A stretch of 64,000 bases of DNA from Paracoccaceae bacterium (GTDB lineage Bacteria > Pseudomonadota > Alphaproteobacteria > Rhodobacterales > Rhodobacteraceae). The stretch covers positions 51,193-115,192 of the forward strand of contig JALQUU010000001.1 in assembly GCA_023260655.1 (NCBI GenBank), read 5' to 3'. The translations under genes were made by a program, and so were the position numbers. Positions 2,897 through 17,107 of this stretch are shown here, in pieces. Under the pieces are notes generated by a model. The model did no database searches. It was given only the letters and a program-made list of their open reading frames with translations, and had not been told where the DNA came from. Each line of letters starts with the position of its first letter. Within the stretch, counting starts at the first letter, position 1.

Positions 2897-3304
2897 TCAG
2901 CGGATCACATGCACCGCGCAAGGCGCATGGCGCAACACATTGGTCGCCGTCGAACCGATCAGGATGTTCTGCACGCCCGGGCGGTGCGAGGCCACCACGA
3001 TGCAGCCAACGTCGTGATGCGCGGCCCAGTCGGAAATCGTGCGGCCCGCATGACCTTCCACCACCTGCACTTCGGCATTTGAAAGCCCCTCCGTGATCTT
3101 GGAGAGCTGGGCGATCAGCTCGGCGCGCGCCTCTTCCTTGAAGTTCGCCGGAAGGTATCCGGCCACATAGCCCGGAACAGACTCCTGAACGTGCAGGAGC
3201 GTTATCCGCCCCTCTGCCCCGGCTAGGGCTTTGCCAACTTCGAGCGCCTGTTTCGTGTTGCGATCGGCCTCGAAACTGACGGGGATAAGAACATGGTGAT
3301 ACAT
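2897..3304 (-). CDS. Universal stress protein (UspA family)
   Basis: A single-domain UspA-type protein of 135 aa. It begins with the typical first strand (YHHVLIPV) and ends with the nucleotide-binding loop region (IGSTATNVLRHAPCAV). USPs bind ATP or other nucleotides and help survival during growth arrest and stress; the precise role here is unknown. The ORF track gives a longer start, but the ATG at 3304 follows a near-perfect AGGAGG and removes an unconserved 11-residue tail. It is tail-to-tail with dgcA (adjacent stop codons) and is transcribed divergently from the beta-barrel gene at 3448, with a CtrA-type box between the two. Confidence 0.9.
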   Translation of the reverse strand: MYHHVLIPVSFEADRNTKQALEVGKALAGAEGRITLLHVQESVPGYVAGYLPANFKEEARAELIAQLSKITEGLSNAEVQVVEGHAGRTISDWAAHHDVGCIVVASHRPGVQNILIGSTATNVLRHAPCAVHVIR

Positions 3305-3392
3305 CTGGCCCTCCTGACCGGTTTCGACGTGAGCCATAACAGCGTTCGAAGGGACACACCTTGATGCAGGTCAGCTTCCTGCCGCGGCCTCG

Positions 3393-3407
3393 TTAACGCT
3401 TGGTTAA
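3393..3407. promoter_or_regulatory. CtrA-type box TTAA-N7-TTAA
   Basis: TTAACGCTTGGTTAA is an exact match to the TTAA-N7-TTAA recognition site of the cell-cycle/motility regulator CtrA of alphaproteobacteria. It lies 41 nt before the start of the outer-membrane protein gene and about 90 nt before the divergent universal stress protein gene. Binding is inferred only. Confidence 0.5.
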
Positions 3408-3447
3408 GCAATCGCCGTCAAACCAAAGGCGTCTCCGGAGGCCTCAG

Positions 3448-4062
3448 ATGCATCGACCCATTGCGTTTCTTGTTGCTCTTACCACCTCCTGCCTTCCAGC
3501 CGAGGCAAACCCCTGGCCGCGCGAAAAGGGCACCTTATTCGGAACACTGAGCCAGGATGCAGCCCACTATACCTCGCTCTACCTCGATCTCGGGATCACA
3601 GCGCGAACCTCGCTTACCCTCGAAGCCGGGAATGATGGCGCGCAGAGGAAGGCCTTGCTCTTTCTCCGCCATGCCTTGCCGCTCAAAGGCAAAACCGCCG
3701 CGCTCGAAATCGGAGCGGGGCTCGAAGGCGCCCAGCCCGTCTTTTCCGCCGGTTTTTCCATCGGGCGCGGTGTGGCTTTTGGCAAGCGCTCGGGCTGGAT
3801 CAGCGCTGATGCGCGCGGCTTCTTCGACATAAGCGGGCGCATCGAGCGGGCCACTTTGGGCCTCACTCTCGGCCAGCATCACGGCAGCCGCGTGATGTCC
3901 ATCGCGCAGATCAATTCCGAGGCCTCGATAACCGGCATCAACGCCGTATTGGCCACCTCTCTCGTCTGGGAATTCAAACCGGGCTTCCACACCGAACTCG
4001 GTGCCGAAATCGGCACGAGCGCGGCACAGAAAGCGAAACTGGGGATCTGGTTCAGCTTTTGA
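3448..4062 (+). CDS. Putative outer-membrane beta-barrel protein, unknown function
   Basis: A 204-aa exported protein that I do not recognise beyond its architecture. It opens with a Sec signal peptide (MHRPIAFLVALTTSCLPAEA, likely cleaved before NPWP). The mature part is made of alternating amphipathic strands and ends in WFSF, the terminal aromatic residue used by the BAM complex. The start at 3448 is preferred to the ORF-track start at 3400 because it is preceded by CCGGAGG and begins the signal peptide directly. Strand count suggests a small barrel of about 8-12 strands. A CtrA-type box upstream hints at cell-cycle or motility-linked expression. Confidence 0.6.
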   Translation: MHRPIAFLVALTTSCLPAEANPWPREKGTLFGTLSQDAAHYTSLYLDLGITARTSLTLEAGNDGAQRKALLFLRHALPLKGKTAALEIGAGLEGAQPVFSAGFSIGRGVAFGKRSGWISADARGFFDISGRIERATLGLTLGQHHGSRVMSIAQINSEASITGINAVLATSLVWEFKPGFHTELGAEIGTSAAQKAKLGIWFSF

Positions 4063-4098
4063 AATGGCATTTTTCCGAGGCCCCGATAGGCTTCGCGC

Positions 4099-4599
4099 AT
4101 GAGCAAAGAACCCGTCTCTCCTATCCGCACCACGGACGCAGAAGCCCTAGAAACCGCACGGCACCTCCTCGCAGAAGCGCGCCATGCGGCGCTTGGTGTG
4201 ATCAACCCCGAAACCCAAGGCCCGATGGTCACCCGCGTTGCTATAGGCCTCGCCGAGGATGGCACACCGATCACCTTCGTCTCGGATCTTTCTGCCCACA
4301 GCCGCGCGCTCCGGGCCAATCCGAAAGCCTCGCTCCTGATCGGCGAGCCGGGCGCGAAGGGCGATCCGCTAAACCATCCCCGCCTCACTCTCCTCGCCAC
4401 TGCCGAGGAAGTCCTGCGCAGCGGTGCCGAGCATGACGCGCTGGCACGGCTCTGGCTCCGCGATCACCCCAAAGCCAAGCTTTACATCGGCTTCGGGGAT
4501 TTCTGCTTCTTCCGGTTCCGTCTTTCGGCGATCCACCTGAACGGTGGCTTCGGCAAGGCCTACAGGCTCGGCCCTGTCGATTTGGGGCTCAGGGCTTAA
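4099..4599 (+). CDS. Pyridoxamine 5'-phosphate oxidase-like FMN split-barrel protein (HugZ-like)
   Basis: A 166-aa protein of the PNPOx-like split-barrel fold. The N-terminal helix ETARHLLAEARHAALG leads into the first strands, and conserved patches include TFVSDLSAHSRAL and RLTLLATAEEV. Proteins of this type bind FMN, F420 or haem; the HugZ subgroup takes part in haem handling, and the match here is to that broad group rather than to a proven haem oxygenase. The gene stands alone on the plus strand and overlaps the 3' end of the convergent beta-helix gene by 4 nt. Confidence 0.75.
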   Translation: MSKEPVSPIRTTDAEALETARHLLAEARHAALGVINPETQGPMVTRVAIGLAEDGTPITFVSDLSAHSRALRANPKASLLIGEPGAKGDPLNHPRLTLLATAEEVLRSGAEHDALARLWLRDHPKAKLYIGFGDFCFFRFRLSAIHLNGGFGKAYRLGPVDLGLRA

Positions 4600-6881
4600 T
4601 TGTCAATCCGCGCCGTCACTGTCAGCGTGCCCTTCACCGCCTGCGGCCAATGCAGCGTCGCCGAACGCCCGCCGCTGCCCTGCTCGGTTTCCACATAGGG
4701 CTGCTCCCAGATCACCGCATTCGACGACGATCGCAGCGCACCCCGCGCCACCACGGCCTCCACGTTCCGCACCCGCCCACCGAAGGGCAGAAGCCCGTTC
4801 GTTTCGAGCGTCCACGTGGTCGCCGCCGTATTCACTGAAAGCGTCAGCGCCCTCGGGTTCTCGATCATCGAGGACACGCCATTGAAGCTGTTCCCCTTGA
4901 TCCAGACGTTCCGGCAGCGCGACCAATCGAGATCGGCGAAAGTCGTGTCCACGCTCTCCACCCGGTCGATCCCGTTACCGATGGTGCGGAACGTATTGCC
5001 CGTCACGCAGAGCCCCTGCAGGAAGTGGCCCGGCCCATAGGGTTTCACCACGATGAAGGTGAACCACGGCACGGTATGACCGCATTGGAATACGTTCTGC
5101 GAAACGGTCTGCCCCGCGAAGGAATATTCTGAATTGTAATCCGGAGCCTGATCGTGCTCGTTCGTCCATTCGATGAAGCAATTGTCGATTTAATTGCCAA
5201 CGATGGAGTTGCGGCAATTGCTCTGGGTGATGATCAGGCCACCAAGCCGCACACCCTGCCCCGTCGCATCGCCCTGAAACCAGTGGTTCCCCGCGAAAAG
5301 GTTCGACGAACCGCCGATCACCGCGAAATGGCGGTGCTGGGTGATCCGGTTGTCGCGGATTTTCACATCATTGCCATTGGTGTTGAGCGCGATGGTCTTG
5401 CGATCTTGCGCGGCGATATTCGATTCCGGTGACAGGAACTGGTTGCGATCCACCAGCATCCCTTGGCAGCCCTGCCCATGGCTCGAAATCGCACGGTCTT
5501 TCGGGTCTCCGAACACGCAATCGCACACCTGGAAAGTCAGTCCAGCCGGTGCCATCAGGATGCAGCTTGCGCGCGCCGAGCAGTTGAACTCGATATCCGA
5601 GATGATGAGCTTCGAGATCTTCTCGAACCCCGAGAAATCGAGCACGTATTTGAAGCGTCGGAAGGTGTAGATCTGCGTGCCTGCCGCATCGTAAAGCGGT
5701 TGCGAAAGCTCGATTTCCTGCGTCGCCACGTTCTTCGAGCGCACATAAACCTCGCGCCCCACACCCGCCGCCGTCACGAGCGAGCCCACCGGAATATTCG
5801 CCACATTGGCCACGTTCGACAGTTTGTAGGGCGAGGACACCGAATAGAACGCTTGGCTCGTCACCACCGTATCATCCCAGTCCGACCCGTTCTCCACATA
5901 GAACTGGCCGTTCCAGATCACGCTGCGCTGCGCATATTCGGTGCGGTTCGGCACCGCCGCCGCCATGTCGATCGGCTCGCTCACATTGATCCGCCGCCCG
6001 CAGAGATCGAGGCTCTCGTGATCCGAGGCATTGTTCAGGCATTGCCACGCCTTCTTGAACGCCAAAACCTCGTCGCCAAAGGCATCGATGTAGGCCACGA
6101 GGTGGAAATCCTGCGCCAGCGACAAGACCCGCGCCGTCGGCATGGAAAGTCGGCCTTCGAAGCGCACATGGTTCTGCATGGTCAGGTCGGAATTGAGGAA
6201 GAACGTCCCCGAAGGCACCACCACAGTCCGCCCGCCCGCAGCCGCATCCGCGGCTTGAAATGCGGCCGTGTCATCGGTCACGCCGTCACCCGCAGCCCCG
6301 AAATCGCGCACATCCACCGTGCCCATCATATCGGGCACGAAAATGCCCGTGACGTCCTCGATCTCGATATCGTCTACTCGCACCGTGCCGCCGGTCTGGC
6401 CCGTCAGGTCGATGCCGAAATGGCCGTAGATCGCCGAGCGGCCCCACTCCATGGTCACGCCGCCGCGCGCGCCTGTCCCGACGATCGCCGAAACCTCAAC
6501 CACTTGGCCATAGGTCGGGATCTGCACTTCTGCCCCCGCCGTCACCACACCCGCAATCGCCGCACCACCCGGCCCAGCCGCAAAGGCCGCGATCCGCACT
6601 TTGGGCAGCGCCCCCGCAACGGCCTTCACCCGTGCCGTCACCCGCAGGTAGCACCCCGGCAGGATCGGGGTCTGCCCCTTGTAGCTCAGTTTCTGCGTCG
6701 CGCTCGTCTTGGTCAGTTCCAGACAGCCGCCGAAATCCTGATCCGCCGGAACAAATGCCGCGTTCCCCACATTCGCATAGCTGTCCGACCCCGCCACGCC
6801 GTCCCCGCTCGACCATTGCGACAGCCCCGCCGAAAACGGCGCCGGAGTGAACAGAATACCGTCAGTGATCGCCTTGTTCAT
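4596..6881 (-). pseudogene. Right-handed beta-helix (GH28-related/pectate-lyase-like) protein interrupted by in-frame TAA
   Basis: Read through the stop, this is a 761-residue protein. It has an N-terminal carbohydrate-binding-like beta-sandwich (about residues 10-190), a pectate-lyase_3-type opening (VRDFGAAGDGVTDDTAAF, about 200), and a long parallel beta-helix. Codon 564 is TAA (5190-5192); the frame continues directly as IDNCFIEWTNEHD and runs to a normal end at 4596, and both halves look like one protein. CAA (Gln) to TAA is the simplest origin. The start at 6881 follows AAAGGGG, and there is no signal peptide. The substrate is unknown; related proteins act on polysaccharides or are phage-tail-like. 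Either a recent pseudogene or a base error. Confidence 0.75.
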
Positions 6882-6979
6882 GAAAACCCCTTTCACGCGC
6901 AGCGCCCAATTGCGCCGTTCGCCTCGGGGTAGTCAGGTTTTGTTAACCTGCCGTCAGACCAGCGCGCGCAGGGCCCGCG

Positions 6980-7375
6980 TCAAGCCGCAGGTGGCGGCGC
7001 GGGGATCAACTGCACCGCATCCACTTTCCAGCCGCCCTCGCCTTGGATCATCTTGTAATCGAGATGGAAAAGCCGCCCCTCCGCGTCGATCACTTCCACC
7101 CGCTGCCAGAGCGACCCCGCGATCTCCCGCAAATCGAGCATCCGGAAACTCTGGAACCGCCAAACCATCGGGTAGCCATTGCGCACCATCGTGCCGAAAT
7201 TCTCGGCCGATCCGAAAATCCCCTGAATGCCGGGGCTCGCATGCTCGAACGCGCCCACGAAATCGTCCCGCGCGAAATCGCCGAACTGATCGGCGATCAC
7301 CGCACCGATTTCGGCCTCCTGCGCGGCAGCAGGCAGGGGCAACAACATCAGCAGGGAAAAAAGAAAAGGGCTCAT
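6980..7375 (-). CDS. DUF4864 domain-containing exported protein
   Basis: A 131-aa protein with a clear signal peptide (MSPFLFSLLMLLPLPAAAQ, cleavage after AAA or AQ). The mature domain fits DUF4864 (PF16156), a small cystatin/NTF2-like fold: the helical start IADQFGDFARDDFVGAFEHASPG is followed by strands ending in GWKVDAVQL. Periplasmic, function unknown. It sits 37 nt downstream of the DUF1523 gene on the same strand, so it may belong to the end of the large minus-strand operon. No strong ribosome-binding site is seen before the ATG. Confidence 0.7.
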   Translation of the reverse strand: MSPFLFSLLMLLPLPAAAQEAEIGAVIADQFGDFARDDFVGAFEHASPGIQGIFGSAENFGTMVRNGYPMVWRFQSFRMLDLREIAGSLWQRVEVIDAEGRLFHLDYKMIQGEGGWKVDAVQLIPAPPPAA

Positions 7376-7411
7376 AAGCCAAAGCTAATGCGTCCTGCCC
7401 TCAATACAAGT

Positions 7412-8047
7412 TCACTTCCGCTTGAAGAAGCGCCCCAAACGGCTCGTCGTCCCAGAAATGGAGTCGCCTGCCGCGTCAAAAGCCTCTTCCACATCCTCGA
7501 TCACCGGATCGATCCGCTTCATCCGGAACCGGATCCAGCGCACCCGAACACCCCAGATGAGCGCCGCAAGGAAAGTCAGGAGCACGATGTTGAACCACGG
7601 AATGATCCGCACATCCGGCCCCTCCACGGGCCAGACCTCCACCGCATTCGGAAAGATCGTCAGATACTCATTCCGCCAGCCATAGTGGCGCACCACAGCC
7701 CATTGCGGGTCCGCCGCCGTGGATTTCAAATCCCCCGCTTCCGCCTGCAAATTCGCCGTATCGAACTTGAAATAGGGCGGCCATCCCCAGCCCGTATCCT
7801 CGTTGCGATAGACCATGATCCGGTCATCCGCGCGCTTAGCCTGAATGAAGAACACATCGCGGTTCACCGAGGTGCCATCTGTGCCCACATCCGCCGGCGC
7901 CCAGAAAATCGAGTTCTCCCCGAAATCGATCCGCTTCGAATAGGTATCGGTGATCCGCACGATATCATGCTGCGGCAGGGTGTAATGCAGCCAGCCCGCC
8001 AACAGCAGCCAGACCAAACCCCAGAACGTCCATTTTACATAGCGCAT
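7412..8047 (-). CDS. DUF1523 family membrane protein
   Basis: A 211-aa protein with one transmembrane helix at each end: residues about 6-22 (WTFWGLVWLLLAGWL) and about 157-175 (WFNIVLLTFLAALIWGV). The roughly 130-residue loop between them, with HDIVRITDTYSKRIDFGEN, probably faces the periplasm; this is the DUF1523 pattern. Starting at 8047 places GAGGA nine bases upstream and drops five extra residues of the track ORF. It follows the 88-aa membrane protein gene by 11 nt, so it is probably the last or second-last gene of the AAA ATPase operon. Function unknown. Confidence 0.75.
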   Translation of the reverse strand: MRYVKWTFWGLVWLLLAGWLHYTLPQHDIVRITDTYSKRIDFGENSIFWAPADVGTDGTSVNRDVFFIQAKRADDRIMVYRNEDTGWGWPPYFKFDTANLQAEAGDLKSTAADPQWAVVRHYGWRNEYLTIFPNAVEVWPVEGPDVRIIPWFNIVLLTFLAALIWGVRVRWIRFRMKRIDPVIEDVEEAFDAAGDSISGTTSRLGRFFKRK

Positions 8048-8058
8048 CGCAGCAGTCC

Positions 8059-8325
8059 TCACGTGTAATTCGTAATATAGATGATCGTGCCGATCACGAT
8101 CACCGGAATGAAATAGACAAGCAGGATCAGCTTGTGGCGCAGCGAGCGCTCATAGGCTTCCATCCCCTCGCGGATAAAGGCGCTCCGGTCGCCCTCCCGC
8201 TTTTCCTCGTCCCATTGCAGCTTCAGCTTCCCCCGCCGCACCGAGCGGGAATAAATCGAGATCCCCAGATAGACCACACTGAGAAAGAGAAAGCCGAAGA
8301 CCACCAATCGAACCAAAGCTATCAT
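8059..8325 (-). CDS. Small two-helix membrane protein, unknown
   Basis: An 88-aa protein with two predicted transmembrane helices (about residues 3-22 and 64-82) separated by a charged stretch (RRGKLKLQWDEEKREGDRSAF), so both termini probably lie on the same side of the inner membrane. The ATG at 8325 is preceded by GGAGG and sits one base after the stop of the upstream 475-aa gene, which argues for translational coupling. No family recognised. The neighbours are all in the same minus-strand operon. Confidence 0.65.
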   Translation of the reverse strand: MIALVRLVVFGFLFLSVVYLGISIYSRSVRRGKLKLQWDEEKREGDRSAFIREGMEAYERSLRHKLILLVYFIPVIVIGTIIYITNYT

Positions 8326-8326
8326 C

Positions 8327-9754
8327 TCAATCCCTCCAGCGCTCTTTCCGCCGGGCCTTGCGGCGGTCGTCGTCGTCATCGTCGCGCCTCTTCGGCGCCT
8401 CGCGCCTCACAGCCCCCCAAGGGCCAACCCGCGCCACAACATCCTCGCGTTTCGGCGGTGGCGGCGGCGGAGAAGGCTCTTCCATCCCCGCCTCATGCCC
8501 GAAAAGTCGCGCCCGCGTGCCCAGCTTGTCCACCTGATACTCGCGCGCCAGAAAATCAGCCACATAGGATTTCTTTGTCTCGCTCCAGCCCCGATACAGC
8601 CGATAGAACAGCGCCTTATGGCAGATGAACAACTGCCGCACATCCTTCGGCGCAAGCTCCGCCAGCAACTGGTTAACCAGATCCCGCTGCGGCACATCCG
8701 CCGCCCGCAGCGTGTAGAAATAAGCCGGATGATCTGAAGAAATCCGCGGCCACGGCGCACCGTCTTCGGCCCAAGCCACCAGCGCATTCAGCGCATGGAA
8801 CTCTTCGGGCAACCGCGCCGCATGCGCCCGCGCCGAGGCCCGGATCTCGCTCCGCGTCGCCCCCGTCAGGTCAACGCCCGCCTCCTGCGCCGCATCCACC
8901 ACGATGAAATCCATCTTCTGGCGCAGGATCGCCGTCGCATCGATCCCCCGCGCCTTCACGATAGGCTCCACCAAACCATTCGCCTCGAAAAACCGCGCAA
9001 TCGCGTTCCGGTCCCGCAGATCGAGCACCAACCCGATCGGCAAAGCCCCCAGCGCCTCCTTCGGCCCCACAGAGACCACCGCAGGCTGGTCCACCGAGCG
9101 AAAGAGATACACACCCCCGAAATGCGAGGTCCAGAAATCCTCCTCAATGAATTCCATCTGCTTGAGCCGCACCGGATTGCGCGTCACATCGCCCGTCTTC
9201 TTCGACAGCCCGATCATCTCCGCGATCAGCACATCGTCAAACCACGCATCCTCTTCGGAAAGGAACCGGTCCACCTTGCGGCCCAGCGCCTCGGCATCCT
9301 TCACCGTGCCGCCCGTCGTATCCGCTTCGATCCGGAACTTCCGCAAATCGAAAAGCCGCGCCGGCGTCTCAACCGAGAAAACCGTATCCACGATCTCCCC
9401 CGCCACCGAATCACGCGCCATCAGCGCAAAAAGCTGCGCTTCATTCTCGGTGATGAACCGCTTCAGAATCGCCCGCTCGTTGGAAAAAGTCGCATCCAGC
9501 AACGGCGCGGTCTTCTGCTCGGTCGTCAAAAGGATGAACTGGCGGTTCACCCCGTTGGGGTTGAGGTACAACGGCTCGCCCAACTCCGCCGCCACTTCCG
9601 GCGAGAACCCCGAAATATCGACATGGAACTCCAAAAGCGCCGTCCGCTTCCCGTTCAACACCGAAAGCGCCCGATTATACCGCTCCACCAGCGCCGGACT
9701 CTCCACCCGCACCAGATTGCCGAACATCAGCCCTTTGGAGATGAGCCGTTTCAT
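8327..9754 (-). CDS. Conserved 475-aa protein of unknown function (possibly DUF6638)
   Basis: A soluble 475-aa protein that I cannot place firmly; it resembles what I recall as DUF6638 of Rhodobacterales. Residues 1-390 look globular with mixed alpha/beta content. The C-terminal 60 residues are low-complexity: a polyproline run (EEPSPPPPPPK) and then an alternating acidic and basic tail (RRDDDDDDRRKARRKERWRD) that could bind membranes or nucleic acid. No catalytic motif is obvious. The start codon overlaps the stop of the 97-aa membrane gene (ATGA), so the two are translationally coupled in the AAA ATPase operon. Confidence 0.65.
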   Translation of the reverse strand: MKRLISKGLMFGNLVRVESPALVERYNRALSVLNGKRTALLEFHVDISGFSPEVAAELGEPLYLNPNGVNRQFILLTTEQKTAPLLDATFSNERAILKRFITENEAQLFALMARDSVAGEIVDTVFSVETPARLFDLRKFRIEADTTGGTVKDAEALGRKVDRFLSEEDAWFDDVLIAEMIGLSKKTGDVTRNPVRLKQMEFIEEDFWTSHFGGVYLFRSVDQPAVVSVGPKEALGALPIGLVLDLRDRNAIARFFEANGLVEPIVKARGIDATAILRQKMDFIVVDAAQEAGVDLTGATRSEIRASARAHAARLPEEFHALNALVAWAEDGAPWPRISSDHPAYFYTLRAADVPQRDLVNQLLAELAPKDVRQLFICHKALFYRLYRGWSETKKSYVADFLAREYQVDKLGTRARLFGHEAGMEEPSPPPPPPKREDVVARVGPWGAVRREAPKRRDDDDDDRRKARRKERWRD

Positions 9755-10044
9755 CGCCCCATCACCCCACGCACGGCCTTAACAACCACCGAAGCCACCA
9801 GCACCGCCCCGATCGCCAACACATAGAACGAGGCCAAGACCCCTTCCGGCGCATCCGTGGCCGAGCACTGCCCCGCCTCTCCAAGATGCAGCACGAAATC
9901 CGCCCCGCAATTCGAGGCCGTCCCAAAAAACGCCGGGATCAGCGCCGCCACAGGCACCCAGATCAGCATCCGCATCCACGCCATTCCCGAAACGAACCAC
10001 GCAGCCCCCAGCGCCACGGCGAAAAACATCAGAAGAAAGCTCAT
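9751..10044 (-). CDS. Small inner-membrane protein, unknown
   Basis: A 97-aa hydrophobic protein with three likely transmembrane helices: residues 2-20, about 24-42, and about 70-90. A short loop carries two cysteines (NCGADFVLHLGEAGQC), which could form a disulfide on the periplasmic side. It overlaps by 4 nt (ATGA) with the ATPase gene upstream and again with the 475-aa gene downstream, so it is embedded in a translationally coupled operon. No family recognised. Confidence 0.65.
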   Translation of the reverse strand: MSFLLMFFAVALGAAWFVSGMAWMRMLIWVPVAALIPAFFGTASNCGADFVLHLGEAGQCSATDAPEGVLASFYVLAIGAVLVASVVVKAVRGVMGR

Positions 10045-11972
10045 CCCTTGCCCTCCAGATAACGCCGCTTGGCTTCTTCCGTGCGCTGAATGTCGCGCAC
10101 CATGCCGAAAATCGCCGCTTCATCGGACTTGTCGGCATAACGGAACTCGCTATCGGCGTAGCGGTTGATCTCCTGCACCACCATCTCCACCGTGATCGGG
10201 CGGCGCAACTCCGCAATCATATCAGGCTTGCGATCATAGGGCTGGAAAAGGAACAGATCCGGCTCCGCCATCCATTCATCCGGCAATTCGAAATCCATCG
10301 CCCGCACCTTCACCGCATCGGTGATGTTCTTGATCGCGCGACCCGTAAACCGCGCATCGGCCTCCTGAATGGCCTTCAGATAGGTGCCAAGCTTGGCAAT
10401 CGTATCCAACTCCCCCACCCGCGCCTCCACCTCGGCAAACACATGGCGCAAACCCGCCTCCTGCGGCTCGGAATGCTTCTCGAAACTCTCCGCCACCGCC
10501 CGCTTGATCTCTTGCGCGGCGAAAAGCTCATGCGCCCCCAAGGGGATCTCGTGCTACTTGCCCAAGAGAAGCGCCAGAATATCGATGTAATCCTCGCGCG
10601 TCTGCGGCCCGTCCACCAGAAACCGCGCCCCCGCCCGCTGGCGCAAAGCATCGTCCACATTCTCGGGGTAGTTCGAGAACATCCCGAAGGTGCAATTCCC
10701 CCGCACCACCGTATTCGCCCCCGCAAAGGCATCCATCAAGACCGAGGTAATCTCCAACGCCCCCGCTGAAGACTGCCGATCCCCCCGCTTCCCAGCGATC
10801 TGGTCGATATCGTCAATCGTGCCGAACCCGATCACCGCAGGATCGAGCACCGCATTGATGAACGCCCGCGCATTCTGCCCCGACTTGCCCTGATAGCTGT
10901 CGATATTGTCCACGCTCAGGTTCTGGTAGCGGAACAGATACCCCGCCACACCGCAATACTCGTGGATCATCCCCGCCATCATCTGGATGAGCGTCGTCTT
11001 CCCCGTCCCCGGCTTCCCGTCCCCGATGAAGGTAAAGATAAACCCGCCCAGTTCCGCGAAAGGATTGAGCTTATGCTCGAAATCATAGGCCATCAGCATC
11101 TTTGCCAAACGCATGGCCTGATACTTGGCGATATGGTTGCCCACCACCTCATGCGGCTTCTTGAACTGCATGGTGATGGTGCTGCCCTTGGCCTTCCGCG
11201 CAGGGCTAAACCCGTTGATCGCGAACCCGTCCGCCTCCACCTGCCACGAGGCGCCCGTAAACGTCTCCAGCCGCGGTGCCGTCACCGCCCGTGCCGCGAT
11301 CTTCTCCATCAAAGCCTCGGCAAAGGCCGCCACCACCCCCACCAACTGCGCCTCATCCGAGGCCAGCGCGCCGATATCCTGATCCAACTCCCAAAGCACA
11401 CCCTGCAAGGCCAGAGGCGCGTTATCCGTCAACACCTCCTCCACCCCGCCAACCTCTACGGTCACTTCGGAGGCATGCGGTGCCAGAAGAAACGCCACGG
11501 CATTGCCGAATACATGCAAAACCGCCAAGGCTTCTGCCTGCAACAACTCACCAAACGCCACCCGCTTATCCGCCCCAAGCGTCCCTTCCAAATTCGCCCG
11601 CTTCAGCGCATCAAGCCCCGTCCGCGCCGCGAATTCCGCACCCAGCGCCAAGGCGATCGCCGCACTCCGGCGCAAAACCGATAGAACCGTGGCCTGCACA
11701 GGGCTTGGAAGCCCGTCGCCCCCCACAGCCTCCACCCGCTCCACCAGATGCACCGCCCCGGCCCGCGCCACCTGACGCGTCACCAAGCCCGGCGTCGTCG
11801 AACGGAACCGCCGCGCAGCCCCCACACCGGGCGAGCGCTCCACCCCAGCCATCTCACGCGCCACCCCCACGCGCGGCGCGTGTTCGAACCCCGATAGAAG
11901 CGCCAATGCCGCCGGAGATTCCGCCCGCACCGCCTCTTCCCGCAATTCCATCTGGCCCGCATTGAGTGACAT
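10041..11972 (-). pseudogene. AAA family ATPase, interrupted by a single in-frame TAG
   Basis: Read through, 643 residues. Residues 1-270 form an Ala/Glu-rich helical N-terminal domain. The ATPase domain then shows Walker A GDGKPGTGKTT, Walker B-like FGTIDDID, a sensor-1 region ending in MFSNYPEN and an Arg finger-like ALRQRAGARF. Codon 473 is TAG (10554-10556), after LLLGK; the same frame then reads HEIPLGAHELFAAQEIKRA and continues 170 codons to a natural stop. CAG to TAG explains it. The core ATPase fold ends near the stop, so a truncated product might still bind ATP, and a TTG at 10541 could restart the rest. Start at 11972 follows GGGAG. Centre of an uncharacterised operon. Confidence 0.75.
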
Positions 11973-11983
11973 ACCACTCTCCC

Positions 11984-12026
11984 TTTTCAAAATATCCCCG
12001 CCAGAGGCACGCGCCTTTCAGGCGCG
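11984..12026. repeat. Degenerate GGATATTT-core element with hairpin ahead of the ATPase gene
   Basis: On the minus strand a small hairpin (GCGCCTGAAAGGCGC) is followed by GGGGATATTTTGAAAAGGGAG and then the ATPase ATG. It shares the hairpin plus GGATATTT order with the repeats at 1.9, 18.5, 38.7 and 59.0 kb, but lacks the CCAATATGAAAG half. It spans the ribosome-binding region of the ATPase gene. Confidence 0.4.
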
Positions 12027-12040
12027 TTCAACTCAAGCGT

Positions 12041-13165
12041 TCAATAGGCAAGCACCCGCCCACCCGGTGCCACCACGAATTTCCGTACAGTCTGAAACCC
12101 CGCCGGATTGCGCACTGCGAGCACCTGATAGGGCCGCTCCGGCATGACGATCGCTCGCTCCATCCGCGTTGCTCCCGTCTCCACCCCGCGCCCCGCAAAC
12201 GGGTCCAAGGCAAACACCTGCCGCTCCACCGAGGAAAACCAACCGAGCTTTTCCTCTTTCACGCCTTCGCTCTCCAGATCCTCCAGCGTGAAGGCCAAAG
12301 CCCAATCCTGCCCCATCGGCGCAGCCGCCTGTTCAAGCACTTCGCGAATAGGCCCGTGCTGCTCGGTATAGGCATGCGAATACATCGGCCCCACGTGCAA
12401 ACGCCGCAAGCGCTTCGGGTGCAAGTCGTTGAAATATTCGTCAAATCCCTTGGCGATGGTCAAAAGCTTCAAGCCCCCCATCGCCTGCCCCATCAGATGC
12501 GCCTGCACCTCCGGCCAGCGCCGCACGTCCTTCGGTAAAGCCGTGCGCCCGCTGTCTTCCACCTCCAACAGGTAGATCGCGGGCAGGTTCACTTGGCTGT
12601 CATAGGCGGCCCAATGGATCAGATACCGCCGCCGATCTTCGCCCAGCCCCGAAAGCCAGACAGCCTGCGGATCGTTGCGCGCCCAGAACAAATCGCCCCG
12701 CTGCAATTCCTCGTAATAAAGCCGCTGCGAGAGCGCGAATTGCTCCTCCGTCGGGATCTCCTGCGCCCCCACGATCCGCCGCACCATCGCTTCCTTCAGC
12801 GCCTGCGTCGGTGGTAGCCCTTCCAGATGCCGCCCCGCCTGCATCGCATCATTGGCCATCATCAGAAGCTCGTTGAACACCGGAAACCCGCTCTCGACCT
12901 TGTCGATCTGCAGCACCCCCGCCATGCTCGCCGTCTCACGCCCGACCAGAAGGTATTTCATCGAAAGCGCCCGGAACGTCAGGTTGAGCGCCACCAGATA
13001 GCGCGTCACCGCCTCCATTTCTTCGGCATCGAACTGCCCCTCGGCGCGCAGCATCGCCGCCACCCGCCCGAGATGGCCGAGAATCCCCTCAAACTTCGCG
13101 AAATAACGCCGGCTCGCAAAGCGGTCCGCCAAAGCCACGTGGTCGCGCGTCAACTCCTCGCTCAC
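12041..13165 (-). CDS. Conserved protein of unknown function in AAA ATPase operon
   Basis: A 374-aa soluble protein that I do not recognise. The first 130 residues are helical (a four-helix-like segment with YFAKFEGILGHLGRVAAML and ALSMKYLLVGRETASM). The middle is mixed, with VNLPAIYLLEVEDSG, and the C-terminus is rich in strands and Arg. There are no transmembrane segments, signal peptide or catalytic motif. It probably starts at the GTG at 13165, preceded by GGGGGAG nine bases upstream. It lies 48 nt downstream of the coiled-coil gene and 68 nt upstream of the ATPase gene, all on the same strand, suggesting that it is a partner or substrate adaptor of the ATPase. Confidence 0.6.
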   Translation of the reverse strand: MSEELTRDHVALADRFASRRYFAKFEGILGHLGRVAAMLRAEGQFDAEEMEAVTRYLVALNLTFRALSMKYLLVGRETASMAGVLQIDKVESGFPVFNELLMMANDAMQAGRHLEGLPPTQALKEAMVRRIVGAQEIPTEEQFALSQRLYYEELQRGDLFWARNDPQAVWLSGLGEDRRRYLIHWAAYDSQVNLPAIYLLEVEDSGRTALPKDVRRWPEVQAHLMGQAMGGLKLLTIAKGFDEYFNDLHPKRLRRLHVGPMYSHAYTEQHGPIREVLEQAAAPMGQDWALAFTLEDLESEGVKEEKLGWFSSVERQVFALDPFAGRGVETGATRMERAIVMPERPYQVLAVRNPAGFQTVRKFVVAPGGRVLAY

Positions 13166-13213
13166 GGCAGCATCTCCCCCGTCTTCACCCGCATCGCGCC
13201 AAATGAACGCGGA

Positions 13214-14296
13214 TCAGCCGCCATAGGCATTATTGTCGTGCTTCTCGACGATCTCGGCAAAGCGGCGCGCAAAACGTTCATCCGCCTTGGCCTTCGCTTC
13301 CAGCACCTGCCGCGCGAACACCATATGGTCTTCGTGGCGCTCCATCATATCGGCCATCTTCTCGTTGGTGGCCGCACCGATCGCCGCCATTGCCGATTGC
13401 GCCTCTTGATCGGTCTTTACCCCGATCTCGTTGATCCGGTGCGCCACATCCTGCTGCTGTGCCGTCTTCAAGGATTTCGTTAGCGCATCATAGAGAACCA
13501 CCCGCTGCCGCGTGTCGGTCTGCAGCTTGTTGATCAACACCATCTGCGTCGCCGCTTGGTTCTGCAAACTATCGACCCAGGTCTTGCCCTTCTCGATATA
13601 GCGCTCCAGCGTCTGGCTCTTGGCGAGCTTCACCTGCTCGTCCTGCACCATCTCGTTATGGCGCGTGTTCAGCTCCGCAAGCTCGGTTTCCAACTTGGTC
13701 CACGCCGCCGCGTCTGTCGTCACGGCGAATTTGTTTTCCAATTCGATGATCTTCGGATCAAGCGCGGCAATCTCCGCCCGCACGCCCTCCAAGGCCCCCA
13801 CGGTGAACTCCCGCTCTTCGAGCGTTTCCACCAGATTGGCCTCAACCTTCGTCTTCTGGCGGTTCAATTCGTCAAGCTGGCTCTGCAGAAGCTTCGTAAT
13901 CACGTCCGATTTCGCGATCAGGTCCTGCAGCTTGTCGTCGATGGAAGCCGTCCGCATCCGCTCCTGCCGCATCGCCTCCGAACGCCCCTTCGAGAAAATG
14001 CCAACGAAACTCTCCCACCCGGTTTTCGAGCGCATCTCGCTGAAATCCTTGGAGAACCCCGCCGTCGCATCATCCAGCCCCATCATCAACTCGGCGATAT
14101 TGGCGTTCATCACCTCGGTGTGCTTGTGCACATCCTCAAGCGTCGCGTTCTCGATATCGATAGACGCGGCCTTCGCATCGCCAGCCGCCATTTTCGCCCG
14201 CGCCGTCTCGATCCGGCCCGTCAGCTCCGCCATGCGCGCCTGCGCCTCGGCCGCTTCCCGCTGGGACTTCTCGATCTGTGCCGCAAAATCGCTCAT
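13214..14296 (-). CDS. Long coiled-coil protein, first gene of the AAA ATPase operon
   Basis: A 360-aa, almost wholly helical, charged protein. Heptad-like stretches cover about residues 5-50, 125-270 and 300-345. There are no transmembrane helices. The C-terminal part (LQNQAATQMVLINKLQTDTR, then LKTAQQQDVAHRI) faintly recalls the stalk region of TelA-type toxic anion resistance proteins, but I would not name it so. The ATG at 14296 follows GGAGAG. About 140 nt separate it from the divergent cupin gene at 14441, which is room for the operon promoter. Its probable role is as a structural or scaffolding partner of the downstream ATPase and membrane proteins. Confidence 0.6.
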   Translation of the reverse strand: MSDFAAQIEKSQREAAEAQARMAELTGRIETARAKMAAGDAKAASIDIENATLEDVHKHTEVMNANIAELMMGLDDATAGFSKDFSEMRSKTGWESFVGIFSKGRSEAMRQERMRTASIDDKLQDLIAKSDVITKLLQSQLDELNRQKTKVEANLVETLEEREFTVGALEGVRAEIAALDPKIIELENKFAVTTDAAAWTKLETELAELNTRHNEMVQDEQVKLAKSQTLERYIEKGKTWVDSLQNQAATQMVLINKLQTDTRQRVVLYDALTKSLKTAQQQDVAHRINEIGVKTDQEAQSAMAAIGAATNEKMADMMERHEDHMVFARQVLEAKAKADERFARRFAEIVEKHDNNAYGG

Positions 14297-14440
14297 CAAA
14301 CTCTCTCCGCTCCGCCAAAGGCAATGTTACAATGCTTTACATATGAACGCTCTCGCGCGAATGGAAGTCTTGCAAATGCCGCGAAAGAAGAAAAGCCCGA
14401 AGCCCTTGATCCCTGCCCGTTCCCGCGCCACTCTCGCGCC

Positions 14441-14776
14441 ATGCTGAACCTCGCTGTCACCCCCGCCACCGACCCCGAAATCTCCCGCCCCGCCCCCGAA
14501 AAGGTGCTCGCAAGCGATCCCGTGCACACGGCATGGAACCTTGAGGAACGCGACGGGCTCTATTGCGGCCTCTGGCAATCCACTCCCGGCACATGGCGCG
14601 TCTCCTATGACGAGTGGGAATATTTCCACATCCGCGAAGGCCATTCGATCCTCACCCCCGATGGCGGCACCCCGATCCACCTCCGCAAAGGCGACGCGCA
14701 AATCATCCGCCCCGGCTTCACCGGCACATGGGAAGTCGTCGAAACCACGCTTAAGGATTACGTGATCCGCCTCTGA
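14441..14776 (+). CDS. Cupin domain protein (DUF861/EutQ-like)
   Basis: A 111-aa single-cupin protein of the (S)-ureidoglycine/EutQ-like DUF861 group. The family signature runs from WRVSYDEWEYFHIREGHSIL to KGDAQIIRPGFTGTWEVVE. In these proteins the metal site is often incomplete and the biological role is unclear. The start at 14441 gives the usual short N-terminus before HTAWNLEERDGLYCGLW; the ORF-track entry is far longer because the frame stays open upstream by chance. It is followed after 17 nt by the P1 peptidase gene and probably shares its transcript. Confidence 0.75.
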   Translation: MLNLAVTPATDPEISRPAPEKVLASDPVHTAWNLEERDGLYCGLWQSTPGTWRVSYDEWEYFHIREGHSILTPDGGTPIHLRKGDAQIIRPGFTGTWEVVETTLKDYVIRL

Positions 14777-14793
14777 AGCCCGAAAGGCCCGCC

Positions 14794-15786
14794 ATGCTCC
14801 ACACCGGCCCCCGCAACCTGATCACCGATGTTACAGGCCTCCGCGTCGGCAATGCTCAAGACCTGTATGTAAAAACCGGCGTCACCGTTCTCGTGGCCGA
14901 CCAGCCCTTCACCGCAGGCGTCCATGTGATGGGCGGTGCCCCCGGCACCCGCGAAACCGACCTTCTCGCCCCCGACAAAACCGTCGAATCCGTTGACGCC
15001 CTCGTCCTCTCCGGCGGCTCCGCCTTCGGCCTCGACGCCCCCTCCGGCGTTGCCGACGCGCTCCGCGCCATGGGTCGTGGCTTCGCCGTGGGCGACATCC
15101 GCGTCCCCATCGTTCCGGGTGCGATCCTGTTCGATCTGATCAATGGTGGCGCGAAAGACTGGGCCGAAAACCCCTATAAAGCCTTGGGCAAAGCCGCTAT
15201 TGAGTCCGCAGCCGCCGATTTCGCGCTCGGCTCCGAAGGCGCAGGCACAGGGGCCACCACCGCCAACTTCCGTGGCGGCCTCGGCTCCGCCTCCGTCGTC
15301 CTGCCCTCGGGCCATACCGTGGGCGCCCTCGTCGCCGTCAACGCGCTCGGCTCCGCCACCGTGGGCCAAGGCCCGCACTTCTGGGCCGCGCCTTTCGAAA
15401 TCGGCTCAGAATTCGGCGGCCACGGTCCCGCCGCCCATTATCCGCAAACCGAAATCCCCGAAACCAAGCTCCGCGCCCACTCTAACACCACCATCGGCAT
15501 CGTCGCAACGGATGCAGCGCTCACCAAAGCCCAATGCACCCGCCTCGCCACCGCCGCCCATGATGGCTACGCCCACGCCCTCGTCCCCGCCCACACGCCG
15601 ATGGACGGAGACCTCATCTTCGCCGCCGCCACAGGCGCGAAACCCCTCGATAACACCGTGGCCGATACGCTCTATCTCGGCCATGCCGCCGCGACAGCCA
15701 TGGCCCGCGCCATCGCCCGCGCGATTCGCGCCGCCCGCGCGCTCCCCGGCGATCTGCAACCGGCCTACATTAGCCAGCACGGCTAA
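14794..15786 (+). CDS. P1 family peptidase (DmpA/L-aminopeptidase D-esterase type)
   Basis: A 330-aa member of peptidase family S58/P1, N-terminal nucleophile aminopeptidases that self-cleave into two chains. Conserved parts seen: ITDVTGLRVGNA at the start, LVLSGGSAFGLDAPSGV around residue 70-86, the EGAGTGATT loop near 150, and the cleavage-region signature SNTTIGIVATDA around 230-241, whose Thr is expected to be the nucleophile. Length fits the family. Cytoplasmic; releases N-terminal residues from small peptides or amides. A strong hairpin terminator follows the stop codon. Confidence 0.85.
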   Translation: MLHTGPRNLITDVTGLRVGNAQDLYVKTGVTVLVADQPFTAGVHVMGGAPGTRETDLLAPDKTVESVDALVLSGGSAFGLDAPSGVADALRAMGRGFAVGDIRVPIVPGAILFDLINGGAKDWAENPYKALGKAAIESAAADFALGSEGAGTGATTANFRGGLGSASVVLPSGHTVGALVAVNALGSATVGQGPHFWAAPFEIGSEFGGHGPAAHYPQTEIPETKLRAHSNTTIGIVATDAALTKAQCTRLATAAHDGYAHALVPAHTPMDGDLIFAAATGAKPLDNTVADTLYLGHAAATAMARAIARAIRAARALPGDLQPAYISQHG

Positions 15787-15806
15787 ACCCCGCAGCAAAA
15801 ACGCAG

Positions 15807-15838
15807 AAAGGCCGCGCAGAGCACTCTGCGCGGCCTTT
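15807..15838. terminator. Bidirectional rho-independent terminator
   Basis: A near-perfect stem AAAGGCCGCGCAGAG/CTCTGCGCGGCCTTT with a minimal loop, followed by TTTTC on the plus strand and by T-rich sequence on the minus strand. It lies between the convergent P1 peptidase gene and rpmJ and can serve both. Confidence 0.85.
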
Positions 15839-15855
15839 TCTTGCCTCAGGGCAAA

Positions 15856-15981
15856 TTAGCCCTGGCGTGCCTTGAAGCGACGCTGGGTCTTGTTGATCAC
15901 GTAAACGCGGCCCTTACGGCGCACGATACGGCAATCCTTGTGACGCGCTTTGAGCGAACGCAGCGAGTTTGCGACCTTCAT
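15856..15981 (-). CDS. rpmJ: 50S ribosomal protein L36
   Basis: A 41-aa basic protein, too short for the ORF track. It reads [20 protein letters not shown] and continues with [19 protein letters not shown], the L36 sequence of the longer type without the zinc-binding Cys/His set (only one Cys). It is a structural protein of the large ribosomal subunit. It stands alone between the terminator at 15.8 kb and tRNA-Val, away from the main ribosomal protein operons, as is common for this L36 form in alphaproteobacteria. Confidence 0.95.
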
Positions 15982-16057
15982 GGGTCTCTCCATCTGTCGT
16001 GCCGCTCACGCGGCGGTGTTACGGGTGGCCGGCACGTAAGCGCCAAGGCCGGTGAAA

Positions 16058-16132
<75 letters not shown>

Positions 16133-16244
16133 CGAAGCATCCGAAGCGCTTCTGGTCTGCGGGTCTATAAAAGGAGTCGTGAGGGGGATCAAGGGCTTTT
16201 GGAAAACCTTTTTTCCGGCTTATCTTACCTTTAAGGGAGAGCCC

Positions 16245-17105
16245 ATGAACACCACGTTGCACCGGATCCTCTGGCCAGAAAAACGCGCCTCCAGCGTGAT
16301 CTTCGCCTCGCCGCATTCCGGCAGGGCCTATCCGCGCGAATTTCTCGCCGGATCGCTCCTTGACGACCACCTCATCCGCTCCTCTGAAGACGCTTTCGTC
16401 GACCAGCTTTTCGCCTCCGCACCGGATCACGGCGCGCCGCTTCTTCTCGCCGATGTGCCCCGCGCCTATGTCGATCTGAACCGCGCCCATGACGAGCTGG
16501 ATCCCGCCCTGATCGCAGGCCTCCGCTCCGCACCGCAAAACCCGCGCATCGCCTCGGGCCTCGGCGTCATCCCCCGCGTCGTCGCCAACGGCCGCGCCAT
16601 CTATCGCGGCAAGATCACCGCGGAAGAGGCCGAAACCCGCATCGCCCGCCACTGGCAGCCCTATCACCAGAGCCTGCAACGGCTCTTGGCCGAATCCCAC
16701 GCCAGCTGCGGCGAAGCAATCCTGATCGATTGCCACTCTATGCCCCAAGAAGCCGTCGACGGCATCGCCCGCTCCGGCCTCCGCCGCCCCGAAGTGGTTC
16801 TGGGCGACCGTTTCGGCGCCTCGGCAGGCTCGGATGTCGTCGAAGCCGTCGAATCCGCCTTCCGCCGCGCAGGCCTCACCGTCGCCCGCAACACGCCGTT
16901 CGCCGGGGCCTACACCACCCAAGCCTATGGCCGCCCTTCCCGCCGCCAACATGTGCTGCAAATCGAGATCGACCGCTCGCTCTACATGAACGAACTCACG
17001 ATCCGCCCGAACGCCCATTTCGAAACCTTCCGCGCACTCCTCGACGGCATCATCCGCGACATCATCCGGATCGGGGCCAAGCCAGAACGCCTCGCCGCCG
17101 AATAA
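16245..17105 (+). CDS. N-formylglutamate amidohydrolase family protein
   Basis: A 286-aa complete member of PF05013. The metal- and substrate-binding landmarks are ASPHSGRAYP near the start, the DVPRAYVDLNRAHDELD block around 78-94, IDCHSMP near 168, and the C-terminal EIDRSLYMNE. The expected reaction is hydrolysis of an N-formyl or N-acyl amino acid. The ATG at 16245 follows AAGGGAG, whereas the track start 66 nt upstream lies in the spacer behind the tRNA. The gene is convergent with dinB with a 2-nt gap. It is distinct from the 5'-truncated paralogue at the window start. Confidence 0.85.
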   Translation: MNTTLHRILWPEKRASSVIFASPHSGRAYPREFLAGSLLDDHLIRSSEDAFVDQLFASAPDHGAPLLLADVPRAYVDLNRAHDELDPALIAGLRSAPQNPRIASGLGVIPRVVANGRAIYRGKITAEEAETRIARHWQPYHQSLQRLLAESHASCGEAILIDCHSMPQEAVDGIARSGLRRPEVVLGDRFGASAGSDVVEAVESAFRRAGLTVARNTPFAGAYTTQAYGRPSRRQHVLQIEIDRSLYMNELTIRPNAHFETFRALLDGIIRDIIRIGAKPERLAAE

Positions 17106-17107
17106 TC

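Follow-up and report, generated by a model that had tools for sequence, protein, structure and literature searches.

Classical AAA ATPases, such as FtsH/i-AAA, proteasomal Rpt, and Cdc48/VCP, act as hexamers that carry out ATP-driven remodeling. In bacterial immunity, type III CBASS combines the ATPase TRIP13/Pch2 with CD-NTase and HORMA partners, and IetAS places the subtilisin-like protease IetS beside its ATPase. Long soluble coiled-coil proteins are found in bacterial stress loci, as in the TelA/XpaC-TelA and PspA-IM30 systems, and defense systems or islands with exchangeable cargo or accessory genes pair a conserved gene set with a fixed site for variable, partly defense-like genes.

The locus analyzed here lies in a 64,000-nucleotide stretch of a Paracoccaceae bacterium contig (the window) and was initially annotated as seven minus-strand genes, several with ATGA overlaps, that looked like a single membrane-associated, ATP-driven machine. 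Gene coordinates and Pfam matches confirm the seven genes, apart from the open frame of the ATPase (AAA), as well as the overlaps, which are found at the junctions of AAA with the 97-aa gene (D97), of D97 with DUF6638, and of the 88-aa gene (F88) with DUF1523. The single machine is not supported: the conserved unit is made of four genes, the 97-aa protein belongs to a changing cargo, and F88–DUF1523 outlasts the core in congeneric genomes. The seven genes thus fall into three layers, namely a four-gene core, the cargo of a slot between AAA and DUF6638, and an F88–DUF1523 tail (table 1). The explanation that we favor, with a probability of about 0.6, is that of a four-gene AAA+ module with a recurrent cassette position, followed by an independent F88–DUF1523 tail, the module itself probably being lost in the window genome.

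Table 1. Features of the operon, in window positions.
Feature	Positions	Strand	Remark
CC, coiled-coil core protein	13214-14299	-	ATG at 14296 is the likely start; conserved length ~358 aa
B, 374-aa core protein	12041-13165	-	No Pfam match
AAA, ATPase assigned to the classical AAA clade, ~300-aa N-terminal region	10041-11990	-	Pfam AAA 4.8e-12, above cut-off
In-frame TAG in the ATPase frame	10554-10556	-	Codon 479/650, ahead of the GRAIKN sensor-2-like region
D97, 97 aa, slot cargo, three hydrophobic helices and a Cys-Cys pair	9751-10044	-	Slot anatomy
DUF6638 (PF20343), 475 aa, fourth core gene	8327-9754	-	Pfam E 8e-230 and alignments
F88, membrane protein of 88 aa with two helices, part of the accessory tail	8059-8325	-	Adjoins DUF6638 in 80/80 loci
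DUF1523, accessory tail gene	7412-8062	-	Pfam E 3e-71
Block without counterpart in congeners G003 (L184) and G002 (L185)	8326-14347		Core and cargo exactly; blastn, flanks syntenic

The ATPase and its core partners

The ATPase has in common with FtsH/i-AAA, Rpt, and Cdc48/VCP the AAA domain, the Walker A and B motifs, the arginine finger, and a sensor-2-like motif. Its motifs are conserved in the family alignment (Walker A, GDGxPGTGKT; Walker B, IDDID within IGFGTIDDID; RQRAGAR; GRAIKN), and its annotation as an AAA ATPase stands, since these motifs are intact in relatives and the Pfam AAA match lies above the cut-off. Searched against the PDB, the AAA profile modestly matched i-AAA protease, Rpt, and VCP-like ATPases (best E 4e-4), and by its motifs and these nearest matches we assign the protein to the classical AAA type. 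As both lines of evidence place it in this group, an ATP-driven hexameric remodeler is the natural reading, and hexamer formation and remodeling activity are most likely, by analogy with the AAA family. The window family nevertheless departs from classical AAA ATPases by its own ~300-aa N-terminal region, for which no match was found, by the IDDID form of its Walker B motif, and by an obligate neighborhood of three unrelated protein families. AAA is 74–81% identical among the Rhodobacteraceae members aligned to the first row, occurs as a single copy in 84 of the 199 Rhodobacteraceae genera sampled by one genome each, and found no match in phage records.

Could the operon simply be a member of a described ATPase defense system, either type III CBASS with TRIP13 or IetAS? 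With PADLOC, the ATPase does hit TRIP13 (8e-5) and IetA (3e-4), but these matches are weak and restricted to the AAA domain. In contrast to CBASS and IetAS, the core and tail proteins yielded no CD-NTase, HORMA, or IetS-type protease model with Pfam, NCBIfam, and PADLOC, and no protease match was found among the operon proteins with Pfam and PADLOC. Together with the lack of a PDB fold match for B, this makes such a membership hardly credible. More generally, searches of Pfam, NCBIfam, PADLOC, and PHROG pointed to no described system, and the initial annotation had assigned no known function to any member of the operon.

The first core gene, CC, encodes a protein that is 75–83% identical in 32 Rhodobacteraceae relatives and 31–43% identical in Hyphomicrobiales. 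Although it resembles the TelA and PspA-IM30 proteins in being a long soluble coiled coil, it differs from both: hhalign gave a probability of 4.1% against TelA (PF05816) with a diverse alignment, without any Pfam match, and <1% against one PspA sequence, and both identities were rejected. The window genome has a genuine, separate TelA. As for B, AlphaFold2 confidently predicts (mean pLDDT 88) a helical hairpin, made of two long helices, together with a beta-rich domain, a fold without PDB counterpart at E<=0.001. A search of a viral fold library likewise gave nothing at this threshold, its list being dominated by levivirus maturation proteins with TM-scores of ~0.1, which we take as noise.

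The 475-aa protein, initially left nameless, turned out to be a full-length member of Pfam DUF6638 (763.6 bits, profile positions 1–439 of 439, above the curated cut-off), a family itself without known function. Its poor model (mean pLDDT 69) had no fold match at E<=0.001, its comparison with B was negative, so that we rejected a homology between the two, and no significant PDB sequence match was found for CC, B, DUF6638, or DUF1523. In the literature searched, DUF6638 appears in no paper, and nothing was found on the function of DUF2333 or DUF1523. The charged tail that had been noted on the 475-aa protein does exist: it occupies the C-terminus (KRRDDDDDDRRKARRKERWRD, 8327–8420 on the minus strand), after the conserved GPWGAVRR where relatives end, and is, in the alignments, special to the window genome.

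On this basis, the ATPase would serve as a hexameric remodeling or unfolding motor, for which CC, B, and DUF6638 may be substrate or adaptor subunits in the cytoplasm. The constant order and strong conservation of the four genes suggest that their products form one complex, possibly through direct contacts. CC-B-AAA-DUF6638 would then be an AAA+ remodeling module without earlier description, built around a motor of known kind.

The core across lineages and its changing downstream partners

In 80 named Rhodobacteraceae loci fetched by DUF6638, the order CC-B-AAA-(slot)-DUF6638-F88-DUF1523 is kept wherever the contig is long enough, and the gaps between DUF6638 and F88 and between F88 and DUF1523 never exceed 122 bp. 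Such conservation goes far beyond chance. A CC profile detected members in 26 of 399 genomes sampled from the phylum; for the order of genome G287, which we take to be Hyphomicrobiales, the count was 26 of 150. About 20 Hyphomicrobiales loci hold the four core genes in the same order, and so do Sinorhizobium records and megaplasmids of Vibrio parahaemolyticus and V. vulnificus, in which all four genes were confirmed by profile search. As the Hyphomicrobiales and Vibrio neighborhoods hold the same four genes, the core can be delimited as CC-B-AAA-DUF6638. The neighborhood check that the initial annotation called for thus shows these neighbors to be conserved together in two orders of Alphaproteobacteria and in Vibrio, from marine to soil bacteria. 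The module is spread patchily over Rhodobacteraceae genera, its core being nonetheless present in >40% of those sampled. A fragment inside SMc02733 of S. meliloti may also belong to the four-gene module, on a locus-tag assignment that we presume to be correct. This fragment is bound by ChvI (PMC3687685).

The genes downstream of the core bear on the machine originally proposed, in which the ATPase, the coiled coil, F88, and DUF1523 would act jointly at the inner membrane. Such an envelope function would agree with the position of F88–DUF1523 directly after DUF6638 in all the 80 selected loci, and with the distant Hyphomicrobiales loci (~30–50% identity), which lack F88 and DUF1523 but in 15 cases have as next gene another membrane-anchored protein, of DUF2333 type. 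A hint of envelope stress also comes from one locus (L121, genome G472), where PspA/IM30 and yiaA/B two-helix genes stand just downstream (3102–4115, minus strand). However, the Vibrio copies are followed by mfd, without any F88/DUF1523-like partner, and no membrane helix is predicted in the core proteins except for one borderline stretch in the ATPase N-region. Moreover, F88–DUF1523 persists where the core has gone, and several relatives that have neither DUF6638 nor the rest of the core still carry DUF1523, from which it follows that F88–DUF1523 is a separable tail. We therefore hold a joint machine at the inner membrane to be quite improbable. As the membrane partner varies between F88 plus DUF1523, DUF2333, and none recognizable in Vibrio, the claimed membrane association can only be a lineage-specific property.

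A cassette position between AAA and DUF6638

The gap between AAA and DUF6638 exceeds 150 bp in 56 of 65 Rhodobacteraceae loci, with a median of 755 bp and lengths of up to 5 kb. Little or nothing fills the slot in the Rhodobacteraceae loci that remain (9/65), in most Hyphomicrobiales, and in Vibrio; in empty slots, AAA and DUF6638 overlap by 1–13 bp (ATGA or 13 bp). The CC-B gap is also larger than 150 bp in 38/69 loci. A codon-usage gene finder missed the foreign slot cargo, and ORF statistics were used instead on the 52 slots of >=250 bp, with reverse-complemented and shuffled sequences as controls. The longest slot ORF lies on the operon strand in 46/52 slots (14 when reverse-complemented, 10.6 in shuffles). 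An ORF begins no more than 30 bp from the AAA stop in 43/52 (7 and 3.5, respectively), and in 39/52 an ORF ends no more than 30 bp from the DUF6638 start (13 and 2.3). The contents form 34 sequence clusters over these 52 loci, and any cargo cluster is common to only 8 of the 45 locus pairs whose DUF6638 proteins are >=90% identical. The GC content of the slot is 0.51, versus 0.61 for the core (p 4.5e-7).

In the window, the occupant of the slot is D97. The initial description of its product as a 97-aa three-helix protein with a Cys-Cys loop is right as to the gene and its features, but not as to its rank of fixed operon member. Indeed, its ATGA overlaps on both sides, its three hydrophobic helices, and the lack of a counterpart at the loci of relatives by tblastn identify it as cargo of a hypervariable slot. 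D97 had no match in Pfam, NCBIfam, PADLOC, or PHROG, and neither it nor one cargo family searched alongside it had a match in plasmids.

For many slot ORFs there is no homologue beyond their own locus, and a few probably do not represent real genes. The slots of four loci (L069, L075, L123, and L124) contain proline-rich false ORFs of the PSPLPSPREGRGEG type, which resemble dispersed non-coding repeats. The slot of Primorskyibacter sedentarius (L028:5050–9881) spans ~5 kb and holds transketolase-like and dehydrogenase-like genes, partly on the opposite strand, and that of Sinorhizobium meliloti Ak57 (L189:9106–10851) holds a DUF559 endonuclease gene and an ISRm16 (IS4-type) transposase; the latter record is labelled pSymB, though its size and gene content resemble those of a chromosome.

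A simple hydrophobicity window detects a hydrophobic segment in 51 of the 66 slot proteins versus 24 of 67 flanking genes (p 1.8e-6), the two sets differing in length (median 157 vs 330 aa). The recognized cargo families, which include restriction, Abi, and toxin–antitoxin genes, are Mrr type IV nuclease, DUF559, HNH, putAbiC, a DUF433/PIN pair, DUF2971, and a HATPase-like domain. These observations raise the question of a modular immune or conflict system, in which the AAA core would sense or remodel a signal from phage or stress, with the slot gene as an exchangeable effector, usually acting on membranes, that the ATPase would release or activate and that would stay under the translational control of the core. 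The membrane-rich cargo (by this crude hydrophobicity test), the defense-like character of some of its families, from Mrr to DUF2971 in the above list, its fast turnover and translational coupling, and the patchy presence of the module over genera all speak for it. On the other hand, the loci with an empty or nearly empty slot indicate that the module can do without an effector. PADLOC matches show no enrichment in the cargo (~5–6 of 66 slot proteins vs ~4 of 67 flanking proteins at 1e-5), so that its defense flavor is qualitative, and no domain is common to the cargo families. Unlike most defense systems, the core is also strongly conserved, single-copy, and syntenic. Overall, an immune role of this kind is possible, though unlikely. 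What would separate it from an ordinary AAA module is control of the ATPase over the cassette products.

A conserved gene set with a fixed position for variable, partly defense-like genes is common to this operon and to defense systems or islands with exchangeable cargo, but here the cargo lies within the core operon itself, its start and stop coupled to the neighboring genes, and the core is vertically inherited and syntenic, without any known defense core gene. Returning to the four-gene module that we favor, the AAA–DUF6638 gap of Rhodobacteraceae would take in small foreign genes, mostly for membrane proteins, and leave the operon unbroken. Such cassettes are read in the direction of the operon, in most cases with coupling to both the stop of the ATPase gene and the start of DUF6638, and would occupy a recurrent passenger position under the expression of the operon, possibly gaining from their co-expression with the module. 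The cassette seat offers a natural series of effector-like genes for one ATPase.

The module in the window genus

The initial annotation had treated AAA as a single open gene and missed the in-frame TAG that interrupts it in the window genome. This TAG divides the frame into 478 and 166 codons, the latter, in the same frame, being the remainder of the AAA C-terminal part. In 75 of 75 relatives the position is a sense codon (Asn, Lys, Arg, Glu, or Gly), and in the sample of 199 Rhodobacteraceae genomes an internal ATPase stop is listed for the window genome only, none being listed for the 83 other genomes with a match; in one genome of this sample (G144), the ATPase gene is in three pieces. Since the stop is unique with respect to the 75 relatives, the ATPase copy is probably decaying, or else, as the source is a draft genome that is 77.5% complete, the TAG may be an assembly error.

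Two congeneric genomes have the flanking genes, G003 and G002, and both keep the neighborhood order from window position ~1 to 20,500 and beyond. At the DNA level, the G003 locus aligns by blastn with window positions 4098–8325 and 14348–17107, with nothing between. It retains both flanks of the missing block, one with F88-DUF1523-DUF4864, the other with the cupin, S58 peptidase, and dinB genes. Because many loci of the family have an S58 peptidase gene upstream of CC, it is more likely, by parsimony, that the core was lost in the congeners than gained in the window genome. The clean absence from the congeners and the TAG in the window ATPase together suggest that this genus is probably in the course of losing the module.

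Two features related to the flanks can be added. The window genome holds a second S58-type peptidase gene (G000:C216:12618–13586), 68% identical to the copy at window positions 14794–15786. Beyond the tail, ORFs of 568 aa (5190–6896) and 158 aa (4596–5072), both on the minus strand and ~120 bp apart, show the same split in both congeneric loci, so that it is not a frameshift specific to the window genome; by eye, the 568-aa ORF resembles a right-handed beta-helix, pectate-lyase-type protein.
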